Position numbers and translations under genes: made by a program. Below the pieces are notes generated by a model. It searched no databases and was not told where the DNA came from. It saw only the letters and a list, made by a program, of their open reading frames with translations. A stretch of 64,000 nucleotides of DNA from an uncultured Sutterella sp. (lineage in GTDB: Bacteria > Pseudomonadota > Gammaproteobacteria > Burkholderiales > Burkholderiaceae_F): NCBI GenBank assembly GCA_944392755.1, contig CALXXT010000002.1:62001-126000 (forward strand). The letters are read 5' to 3'. Every line of letters starts with the position of its first letter. Positions within the stretch are counted from its first letter, which is position 1. Below, piece after piece: positions 57-9,517 of this stretch.

Positions 57-72
57 TGTTCCACGTGGAACA
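57..72. other. parS: parS centromere site 1 (ParB binding)
   Basis: The sequence TGTTCCACGTGGAACA is a perfect 16-bp palindrome and sits inside a 22-bp perfect palindrome (54-75). It matches the conserved bacterial chromosomal parS core (TGTTnCACGTGnAACA), which ParB binds and spreads from. Short GGCC-containing arms (CGGCC to the left, GGCCG to the right) flank it and extend the imperfect symmetry. Confidence 0.88.
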
Positions 73-119
73 TTGCGCTTGGCCGAACTGCGGTCAGCAA
101 CCTAATTCATCTTCGGAAG

Positions 120-185
120 GAAGATCGCTTCAATTTTCAGTCGGCGGATGTTTCACGTGAAACATCCGGACATGGAGCGATCTTC
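120..185. repeat. 10-bp inverted repeat enclosing parS site 2
   Basis: The arm GAAGATCGCT (120-129) is exactly complementary to AGCGATCTTC (176-185). parS site 2 lies between the arms, so the two palindromes are nested. Transcribed or extruded, this could form a long stem with the parS hairpin at its tip. Function unknown. Confidence 0.6.
149..164. other. parS: parS centromere site 2 (ParB binding)
   Basis: TGTTTCACGTGAAACA is the canonical chromosomal parS sequence with no mismatch, and the symmetry extends to 24 bp (145-168). It lies 92 bp from site 1 and 164 bp from site 3 (start to start). Clusters of such sites near the origin are the normal loading platform for ParB and, through ParB, for SMC/MukB-type condensins. 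Confidence 0.92.
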
Positions 186-254
186 GTCCGCCTTGCTTTC
201 TGGGTGTAGCTGCGAGGTCAGCGACTGTTTTGCGCGGTGTTTTTCCCCGCAGGA

Positions 255-294
255 CATAAAAACAATCCCGGCCTTCCAAAAGAGAGGGCCGGGA
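255..294 (-). terminator. Rho-independent terminator of the CBS-domain gene
   Basis: An 8-bp G+C-rich stem (266-273 with 287-294) is followed on the minus strand by a T-rich run (TTGTTTTTATG). It lies about 50 bp downstream of the leftward CBS-domain gene, so that transcript should read through parS site 3 and stop here. Confidence 0.7.
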
Positions 295-312
295 CGTCTT
301 TGACTTGGCGGA

Positions 313-328
313 TGTTCCACGTGAAACA
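313..328. other. parS: parS centromere site 3 (ParB binding)
   Basis: TGTTCCACGTGAAACA matches the parS consensus; the only asymmetry is one C/A pair in the half sites. It lies between the stop codon of the CBS-domain gene (345) and that gene's terminator, so it is inside a transcribed 3' untranslated region. Confidence 0.88.
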
Positions 329-344
329 TCCTCTGCTATGAGAT

Positions 345-806
345 TTAGTCTTCGGAACGAAGCGCCACTTCCCGAGTCTTGGAGGAGTGGATGTTGCGCA
401 CGAGACTTCCGAGCAGCTCGGAGAGCTCTTCGATCAGGTTGGAATTGGAGATGACGCCGACGATGACGCCGCTGTCGTCCACGATAGGTAGGCGGCGGAT
501 TCCGAATTCGCGCATTCGGGCTAGCGCCATCACCATGCCTTCATTGGTCCGGGCCGTCACGACGGGCTTGGCCATGATGTCGCCGACTTTCGTAGTGCTT
601 GGATCGGCGCGGAGGGCAACGGCCTGAATCGTGATGTCGCGGTCGGTAATCATGCCGACGGGCTTGCGATCCTGATCAATGACGACGAGGCTGCCAACAT
701 GTTCGCGCCGCATCTGAAGCGCGCAGGCTTCAATTGTTTGATCGGCCGTCGTGGTTGCGACTTCGTGAACGGCCATGTCGATGACTTTAAGAGATCGGGT
801 CCGCAT
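345..806 (-). CDS. Tandem CBS-domain protein
   Basis: A 153-residue protein made almost entirely of two CBS repeats (about residues 8-65 and 75-132), with the typical pattern of a strand ending in GSLVV or RRLPIV followed by a short acidic turn and a GVI strand. Paired CBS modules bind adenine nucleotides (AMP, ATP, SAM) or NADH and act as sensors; stand-alone copies like this have no fixed role. There is no attached catalytic domain or membrane segment. The ATG at 806 is used because the first CBS strand begins within ten residues of it. It is the gene nearest to the parS cluster. Confidence 0.85.
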   Translation of the reverse strand: MRTRSLKVIDMAVHEVATTTADQTIEACALQMRREHVGSLVVIDQDRKPVGMITDRDITIQAVALRADPSTTKVGDIMAKPVVTARTNEGMVMALARMREFGIRRLPIVDDSGVIVGVISNSNLIEELSELLGSLVRNIHSSKTREVALRSED

Positions 807-871: not shown

Positions 872-1771
872 TTACGGAGCCGATGCCTTTTGCACTTCAT
901 CGCTCGTTTGACGGGCGTCAACGCTTCGGCGAGTAAAAGTCTCGAAATCGTAAATGCCGGAATCCATCAGATGCGAGGGCGATACCCGCTTCATGCTCAT
1001 GAAGATGTTGTAGACCCTGCCGGGACACTCTCTATCCCATTGTCGAATGAGCGCCTTGAGCTCCGTACGTTTCTTGTTTTCTCCGGCGCCGCAAAGCCCT
1101 TTTCCGATCAATGGGTAGTTTCGGATTTTGGCCATTTTTTCAGTTTCGTATTCTCGGACGTAGGCAAGCGGTCGAATGACGACATGGCGGCCATCGTCGC
1201 TTCGCAGAATGGGCGGCATGCCTTTAAGACGCCCTCCGTAGAAGACATTGAGGAGAAAGGTGCTCACGATGTCGTCCATGTGGTGACCGAGTGCAATCTT
1301 CGTACAGCCAAGCTCGTCGGCAACGCGATAGAGAATGCCACGGCGCAGTCGAGAGCAAAGGGAACAGACATTTTGGCCGTCCGGAATCAGTCTCTGGATG
1401 ATCGAGTAGGTGTCCTGATCCTCAATGTGGTAAGGCACCCCGCAGTCTTCCAGGTACGTCCGCAACGTCTCAACGGGGAACTGCGGGATATGTTGATGGA
1501 TGTTGACGGCGACGAGCGAGAAGTCGATTGGAGCTCGTGCTTGGAGCGTTTTCAGCGCCTCAAGCAGTACGAAGCTGTCCTTGCCGCCGCTCATGGCGAC
1601 AAGGACTTTGTCTCCATCCTGGATCATGCCGAAGTCGGTGACAGCTTCAGCCGTGAGCTTGATGATCCGCTTGGTGAGACGGCGTTGTGATACGGAGAGC
1701 TGGTTGCGCTCATTCAGTTCCATTTCCGGTGGACGGCTTCCTTTGGGGGGACGAAAAATGACGGTTGCCAT
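872..1771 (-). CDS. ttcA: tRNA 2-thiocytidine(32) synthetase TtcA
   Basis: TtcA converts cytidine 32 of certain tRNAs to 2-thiocytidine, using ATP and a persulfide donor through an iron-sulfur cluster. The 299-residue protein shows the PP-loop SGGKDS (residues 61-66), the C-x2-C pair (C136, C139) within a [10 protein letters not shown] motif, and a third candidate cluster cysteine near residue 227 (GKGLCGAGE). Length fits the family. The ATG at 1771 lies 2 bp after the folB stop codon, so the two are probably co-transcribed leftward. Confidence 0.93.
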
Positions 1772-8182: not shown

Positions 8183-9517
8183 TTAGGATTTTCGCTGTGC
8201 GGCTTTTTCTGCTTCGTAGGCCTGCAGGCGCCGGAGCGCATCGACAACGTCGGCGAAACCGACGCCGGAAAGGAGGGCGCCGGGAGCTTCAAGAATCGCC
8301 TGCGGTTCACCCTTTAGGCGCTTCACCCACTGACCGGCATCGCGGCCGGAGGCAAATTCATCCGAAATGAAGAGTTCGCGCACGCCGTCAACGATCTTGA
8401 AGCGGAAGGCGTCGTTTTCACGGTACTGCTTGAAGAGTGTGGAGCAAGTCTTCTTGGTGGGCTCGGCGGCCGACACATCGGTTTCTTGCTGGTGCGTGAA
8501 GCTTCGCAGGCCGACAGCCTGACGAAGCTTTTCGAGGAACGGAGCGGCGTAGGCGCGGGCTTTGCGGGCACCGGCTTGCATGATGTCCTCGAGGTCGTCG
8601 GGATGAGCCATCAAAGTTTCGTAGCGGGAGCGCATCGGACCGATTTCCCGATCAATCGCCTCGGCGAGCATTTGCTTGGCTTCGCCCCAGCCGAGACCTC
8701 CGCGAAGGGCTTCGCGGAAAGCCGCACCTTCTTCCTTCGTGGAGAAGGCATCGTAGATCACGCACAGCGACGTGCTGTTGGGATCCTTCGGTTCGCCTGG
8801 GAGACGGCTGTCGGTGACGATGCGCGAGATGGCTTCGTCGAGCGCCGCGCGGCCGCCTTCGAAGAGCGGAATGACGTTGTTGTAGGACTTGCTCATCTTG
8901 CGGCCGTCAAGCCCCGGGAGCACCTCAACGTTGCTGCCGCCCGTCGCCTTCGGCAGAACGAAGAAAGGGGCGTCGGCTGGCGCATAGAGATTGTTGAAGC
9001 GGGAAGCCGCTTCGCGAGCCATCTCCAAATGTTGAATTTGGTCGTGACCGACCGGAACCTCGTCGGCGTTGAACATAAGAATGTCGGCCGCCATCAGCAC
9101 CGGATAGCAGAAAAGGCCCATCAAGACGTCGGCGTCCGGATCGCGTCCTGCTGCGACGGCGGCATCGACGGCCGCCTTGTAGGCGTGCGCACGGTTGAGA
9201 AGCCCTTTCGACATCACGCAGGACAGCATCCAGTTGAGCGTCGGAATTTCAGGAATGTCGCTTTGACGGTAAAAAACAACATGATCCGGATCGAGTCCAG
9301 CGGCAAGCCACGTGGCGGCGATCTGCATGCGGCTGCGTTCGACTCGCGCAGGATCATGGCATTTGATCAGAGCATGAAGGTCGGCCAGAAAGAAGAAGCT
9401 CTCGACATTCGGATTACGGCTCTCCTGAATGGCCGGTCGGATGGCTCCAACATAATTGCCGATGTGGAGTGTTCCGGTCGTGTTAATGCCAGTGAGTACT
9501 CGCTTATGACGGTTCAT
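8183..9517 (-). CDS. trpS: Tryptophan-tRNA ligase
   Basis: Class Ic synthetase that charges tRNA-Trp. The HIGH motif appears as TGTLHIGNYVGA (residues 14-25) and the KMSKS loop as GRKMSKSYNNVIPLF near residue 210. At 444 residues it is about 110 longer than E. coli TrpS; the extra C-terminal part (from about residue 350) begins CSTLFKQYRENDAF and looks like a compact helical add-on found in some betaproteobacterial TrpS proteins. It lies between metK and ahcY on the same strand. Confidence 0.95.
   Translation of the reverse strand: MNRHKRVLTGINTTGTLHIGNYVGAIRPAIQESRNPNVESFFFLADLHALIKCHDPARVERSRMQIAATWLAAGLDPDHVVFYRQSDIPEIPTLNWMLSCVMSKGLLNRAHAYKAAVDAAVAAGRDPDADVLMGLFCYPVLMAADILMFNADEVPVGHDQIQHLEMAREAASRFNNLYAPADAPFFVLPKATGGSNVEVLPGLDGRKMSKSYNNVIPLFEGGRAALDEAISRIVTDSRLPGEPKDPNSTSLCVIYDAFSTKEEGAAFREALRGGLGWGEAKQMLAEAIDREIGPMRSRYETLMAHPDDLEDIMQAGARKARAYAAPFLEKLRQAVGLRSFTHQQETDVSAAEPTKKTCSTLFKQYRENDAFRFKIVDGVRELFISDEFASGRDAGQWVKRLKGEPQAILEAPGALLSGVGFADVVDALRRLQAYEAEKAAQRKS

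Follow-up and report, generated by a model that had tools for sequence, protein, structure and literature searches.

What are three closely spaced palindromes doing between two convergent genes of a Sutterella genome (Sutterellaceae, Burkholderiales in NCBI), and where do they lie relative to the replication origin and to the parAB genes? The window (the whole 64-kb stretch of DNA that was analysed, G000:C2:62001-126000) carries exact copies of the parS word TGTTNCACGTGNAACA at three places found by pattern search: site 1 (TGTTCCACGTGGAACA, 57-72), site 2 (TGTTTCACGTGAAACA, 149-164) and site 3 (TGTTCCACGTGAAACA, 313-328). Canonical parS has been described as TGTTTCACGTGAAACA and its Pseudomonas form as TGTTCCACGTGGAACA (PMC5450999). 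No fourth match exists in the window, even with two mismatches allowed, and shuffled versions of the window gave a mean of 0.08 matches, with at least three matches in none of 100. The assembly comprises 1,740,572 bases in 96 contigs and is 89.8% complete, so that it lacks about a tenth of the genome; in the 1.74 Mb searched the same three sites, all inside 272 bp, are the sole exact matches. Allowing two mismatches added two scattered parS-like matches (C2:231442 and C79:546), compared to six for the reversed control pattern. The preliminary description, made from the window alone, had reported three 16-bp palindromes within 272 bp and none elsewhere in the 64 kb, which is confirmed, and had proposed a search of the full genome; in the assembly this returned no scatter of equal matches.

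Each site is embedded in a longer palindrome, with lengths as previously estimated (22, 24 and about 22 bp). Sites 1 and 2 form the middle of perfect palindromes of 22 bp (54-75) and 24 bp (145-168), respectively, and site 3 lies inside a palindrome of 22 bp (310-331) in which a single pair is mismatched. A 33-nt direct repeat on the forward strand surrounds site 2 (135-167) and, 88% identical, site 3 (299-331), which suggests that the cluster may have grown by local duplication. Site 2 is also flanked on both sides by a 13-nt inverted repeat (120-132 and 173-185, 92% complementary).

All three sites fall within the 309 bp that separate two convergent genes, ppk2 (stop at base 35) and a CBS-domain gene (stop at base 345). 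ppk2 (polyphosphate kinase 2, TIGR03707 above cut-off) is on the forward strand and enters the window with its 3' end only (1-35), its start lying to the left (L005 4836-6035). The CBS-domain gene (345-806, reverse strand) encodes 153 amino acids; among the families listed in its profile search (25 of 26) many are of CBS-containing proteins, all matched below cut-off. It is followed by ttcA (872-1771, reverse strand, NF007972 above cut-off), which adjoins the cluster and serves as a landmark below, then by a folB-like gene (domain model above cut-off, equivalog below) and a cca-like gene, whose models stay below cut-off. A GC-rich hairpin (266-294) of -22 kcal/mol, with a z-score of -6.0 for 255-300, separates sites 2 and 3. 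It is probably a transcription terminator serving the convergent ppk2 and CBS genes, and is absent from the output of a simple terminator scan.

Profile searches with TIGR00180 and PF02195 detected no ParB in this assembly, whereas a control genome of E. coli gave a ParB-family match. Full DnaA or MnmG were not found either, with weak partial matches at most, nor was a true GyrB: the two matches to the GyrB model, on contigs C61 and C39, are 37–40% identical to the GyrB of the relative G052 and score best with the ParE model. These two ParE-like genes are located at C61:1-1872 (above the ParE cut-off) and C39:51447-53381 (just under it; L152 and L153). C61 was considered as a bridge to the origin and rejected due to the ParE-like nature of its gene. 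A genome without parB had been named in the preliminary description as evidence against a centromere, and to the letter this is what the assembly presents. However, because dnaA, mnmG and gyrB are absent too and the assembly is 89.8% complete, we read the absence of parB as an assembly gap over the origin segment rather than as loss, and loss of ParB in this lineage was rejected on the same grounds.

In our sample of 67 genomes under family label f1, ParB is present in 61, including all 39 good genomes (completeness at least 90%, contamination at most 5%), and each of the six genomes without detected ParB (G000, G056, G003, G005, G006 and G008) is less than 90% complete. Within the genus label g1, which holds 12 genomes including G000, ten of the 11 other members have ParB, although in G058 (C1:2685347-2685819) it appears as two matches split by a stop codon, perhaps a sequencing error. 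The ParB of G052 matches solved chromosomal ParB/Spo0J structures. Absolute conservation in ParB has been reported for R173 and G201, while Q162 and K171 were described as parS contacts common to ParB and Noc (PMC7383237). Arg173 and Gly201 are retained in all 26 aligned family ParBs (four of them from g1), as is GERR within the CTP motif. Of the six parS-contact residues common to ParB and Noc, two (positions 162 and 171) differ in 22 of the 26, being His/Arg there and Gln/Lys in G044-G047 only. Noc itself is not indicated: the G052 protein scores 210.7 bits with the Noc model, under its cut-off of 315 though higher than the 187.0 bits it obtains with the parB_part model, and the relatives' proteins carry Arg173/Gly201, not the Noc-type Gln173, Lys179, Lys184 and Arg201 (Caulobacter numbering).

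Where, then, is the origin? The 62 kb of contig C2 to the left of the sites is largely collinear with the 1,847 kb-1,915 kb region of G052, and likewise with G054, G058 and G062, a few genes being absent on either side. Beyond the collinear end the relatives carry gyrB and dnaN (both named on G058), dnaA, mnmG, a ParA-like gene and parB. The ParA-like ATPase (g071), which precedes parB, matched ParA-type models, none above cut-off among those listed. From the position of the last gene shared with the relatives (C2:721), collinearity predicts dnaA at 67–70 kb to the left of the sites, which would be 5–8 kb past the left end of C2, and parB at about 80 kb, outside the contig, with dnaA in between. 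GC skew, a plot of which had been suggested earlier, keeps a positive sign throughout C2 (all 16 bins, each of 20 kb), in agreement with an origin to the left; in G052 and G058 it switches sign at dnaA, while in G054 and G062 it is noisy, positive around dnaA and weakly negative again further on. The preliminary claim that the origin and parA/parB lie close to the left edge of the window is thus right in direction, as both collinearity and skew indicate, but not in closeness, given the predicted distances.

The exact site of oriC may vary. The densest 1 kb of DnaA boxes adjoins dnaA in G052 (four boxes) but lies about 7 kb from dnaA in G058 and G062 (four boxes each) and in G054 (two). Groups of DnaA boxes are found past gyrB in G054 (219572-219709), G058 (8274-8635) and G062 (278431-278799), and oriC is possibly located at these groups in some species. 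The left end of C2 is near the place that matches them. The part of the contig nearest the presumed origin (G000:C2:1-20000; L058, L059) has a GC content of 49.7%, compared to 58.3% for the whole contig.

The same locus recurs through most of the genus. parS with at most one mismatch is found in 11 of the 12 g1 genomes, while the control pattern gave one match in four genomes and none in eight; G056 (79% complete) yielded neither parS at this threshold nor ParB. Nine of the 11 parS-bearing genomes have their main sites in the CBS/ppk2 gap or, where ppk2 is lacking, in a CBS/rsmI gap; G057 and G061 are placed there from the ppk2 side alone, the sole side present on the contig, and in both the cluster adjoins ppk2 and parB is on a separate contig. 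G059 and G060 have one site at folB/cca, about 1.6 kb off, and another 5.5 kb further. The gene contexts of G054, G058, G060 and G062 were assigned by tblastn. Around the sites the gap has undergone sequence turnover, with a mean column identity of 36% among the seven sequences aligned.

In eight g1 relatives the cluster and parB share a contig (G052, G053, G054, G055, G058, G059, G060 and G062, with G058 treated as circular for the distance measurements). Here the cluster is 64–74 kb from dnaA and 75–85 kb from parB, with dnaA between them, the G053 value resting on a partial dnaA match below cut-off on the cluster's contig. The distance between dnaA and parB is 9–10 kb in the seven relatives computed. 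G053 has two dnaA-like matches, a partial one near parB (C111:222978) and a full-length one on another contig (C440:14491), which may reflect contamination or a second copy. G052 (C1:1897702), G055 (C110:36038) and G057 (C74:42877, one mismatch) each have an extra single site on the cluster side of dnaA, at a distance of about 24 kb from that gene and 35 kb from parB; G000 has no counterpart at up to two mismatches. Two further one-mismatch sites are far off (G052:378654 and G058:2577636). Near parB itself no parS with at most one mismatch is found in any g1 genome, the nearest being at about 35 kb, and the mnmG-parB stretches of G052, G054, G058, G060 and G062 are free of parS save for one two-mismatch match in G054.

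Outside g1 the arrangement is different. Exact parS occurs in 44 of the 67 family genomes and the reversed control in none. In all 26 testable genomes outside g1, that is those with exact parS and ParB on a shared contig, parS is 2.6–8.2 kb from the best ParB match. These were drawn from 30 non-g1 genomes with exact-parS places, four of which (G014, G035, G050 and G051) have parS and ParB on separate contigs; G063, G064 and G065 also contain exact parS and are not among the 30, and 22 genomes outside g1 are without it. One of the 26, G012, also carries two parS on another contig. In the seven genomes mapped (G011, G018, G021, G034, G040, G042 and G046) parS sits at or just upstream of the mnmG start, G018 having one additional site about 2 kb on. 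The genera g4, g5, g6, g8, g13, g15 and g16 share with g1 the same parS word and, in the ParBs aligned, the same Arg173/Gly201, but they have parS beside mnmG-parB, whereas g1 has none at that place and a cluster across dnaA. Genus g2 (G001-G009) has exact parS in none of nine genomes. A different parS word there was considered and rejected on the basis of G001, G002 and G009, the three of the nine in which such places were mapped; they have sites with one or two mismatches 1.7–4.5 kb from parB. Some of these near-parS sites in g2 have an altered central CACGTG and are candidates for a worn centromere (further g2 loci are L139, L140 and L147). The g2 ttcA loci L161, L163, L164 and L208 have no parS at up to one mismatch.

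Could the genes have moved rather than parS? We rejected this by comparison with G009 (g2) and G046 (g15), in which ttcA is about 70–74 kb from parB with dnaA between. The order parB-parS-ttcA is found also in G001, G002 and G045, at 70–85 kb (dnaA was not located there). Gene order differs in G044 and G047, where ttcA is 37–39 kb off on the opposite side of parB from parS, and in G021, where it is 128 kb away on the parB side. Among 80 ttcA loci taken from named genomes together with flanks of up to 6 kb, six (L154-L158 and L168) have parS with at most one mismatch. All six bear the name Sutterella and come from genomes already in the sample (G053, G060, G059, G058, G055 and G062), so that they are not independent support. 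In S. wadsworthensis DSM 14016 (L159) the contig ends 756 bases past the ttcA match. It still covers the CBS gene and the beginning of the gap, where no parS is found at up to four mismatches; any sites of this genome must therefore be located elsewhere or beyond the end of the contig. L162 (UBA1442), also named Sutterella, has no parS at up to one mismatch, and its TtcA is 65% identical, like those of g2. The remaining 72 named loci have none at this threshold. The CBS/ppk2 place is therefore common in the genus but not universal.

Taken together, we consider it reasonably probable that an ancestor of this Sutterella group lost the parS cluster from beside mnmG-parAB, its place across the family, and that the cluster arose anew about 80 kb off, across the origin and on the other replichore, while the neighbouring genes stayed in place (compared to G009 and G046) and the two parS-specific residues of ParB remained unchanged. 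The new place would then have been kept through most of the genus, with single sites coming and going. We hold this less firmly because L159 shows no parS and because in three genomes outside the genus ttcA lies on the same side as parB. The changes at positions 162 and 171 do not appear to track the move, because they are present both in genera with parS beside parB and in those without.

As to function, we are confident that the three sites together form a chromosomal parS cluster, predicted, as in the preliminary description, to be a ParB-loading centromere; it would lie about 70 kb from dnaA on one replichore. The complete 16-bp palindrome, the few clustered copies with the rest of the assembly free of them, the same locus in most of g1 and the Arg173 and Gly201 of the relatives' ParBs all argue for this. 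Weighing on the other side are the lack of a ParB match in this assembly, the negative results for G056 and L159, the noisy skew of G054 and G062, the higher Noc score of the G052 protein and the altered residues 162 and 171. Origin-proximity is measured at 64–74 kb from dnaA in eight genus relatives, and for G000 the distance is deduced from collinearity and GC skew. By analogy with known ParABS biology, ParB dimers would load at the cluster, close into a CTP-dependent clamp and slide onto flanking DNA, ParA would then pull the replicated origin regions apart, and ParB at parS could also enable SMC loading. This genome presumably carries the same parAB as its relatives, adjoining its unassembled origin.

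Other roles can be envisaged. The sites might bind ParB yet act mainly locally, repressing or tuning the flanking genes, with the real centromere nearer parAB in the assembly gap. The origin-side region of G000 is indeed unreadable, and the single sites about 24 kb from dnaA in three relatives mean that not every site is clustered. We nevertheless regard a mainly local role as very unlikely, as no g1 genome has a site with at most one mismatch nearer to parB than about 35 kb, the five readable mnmG-parB stretches agree (a single two-mismatch match, in G054), and the cluster sits between convergent gene ends in G000, G052, G054, G055, G058 and G062, although not at the folB/cca site of G060.

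Nor do the position between convergent gene ends and the nearby stable hairpin make a strong case for operators of a different, CACGTG-binding regulator, or for a mere part of the terminator structure. The hairpin is a separate element, the full 16-bp parS word is present beyond the core, and the exact sites of the family are near parB or origin genes wherever parB shares the contig, so that such a role is highly improbable. To the notion that the sites are relics, disused in a lineage that has lost ParABS, we give next to no credence. Its attraction is that parB was not found in G000, but the assembly lacks dnaA, mnmG and gyrB too, ParB is present in ten of the 11 other genus members (the G058 copy being split by a stop), three exact copies survive, and the sites persist in most of g1 while the surrounding gap diverges. 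A ParB-loading centromere is thus our preferred explanation, and the cluster itself is textbook and its distance from the origin precedented; what may be new is the probable shift at the level of a genus. In the open-licence literature (titles and the starts of abstracts) we found no description of such a shift, or of parS or ParB of Sutterella. The family, with parS at parAB in some genera and 64–74 kb beyond the origin in another, offers a natural experiment on the range over which bacterial centromeres can shift and on the side of oriC they can occupy. Displacement of the centromere has been addressed by engineering in P. aeruginosa and V. cholerae (PMC5098823, PMC4091711), and the number and clustering of parS over evolution have been named as open questions (PMC7333895).

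How does the cluster compare with known systems? parS1-4 of P. aeruginosa share with it the same 16-bp word, several copies in a short stretch and proximity to the origin. The four main sites of P. aeruginosa are close to oriC, whereas the Sutterella cluster, judging by the relatives, is separated from dnaA by about 70 kb and from parB by about 80 kb. V. cholerae belongs to a different class of bacteria from Sutterella, and its likeness is one of distance and site number. Its parAB1 is beside the origin. The parS1 cluster has three sites in nearly the same geometry as the Sutterella cluster. On chromosome 1 these are at +63, +66 and +69 kb from oriC (PMC5098823); another account gives a single three-site parS1 cluster at about 60 kb from oriC1 (PMC9140986), and moving parS1 artificially to 300–650 kb altered the chromosome arrangement and left fitness unaffected (PMC4091711). 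Because parS of P. aeruginosa functions within a zone that spans about 650 kb around oriC (PMC5098823), the distance of the Sutterella cluster from its origin is within known tolerance.
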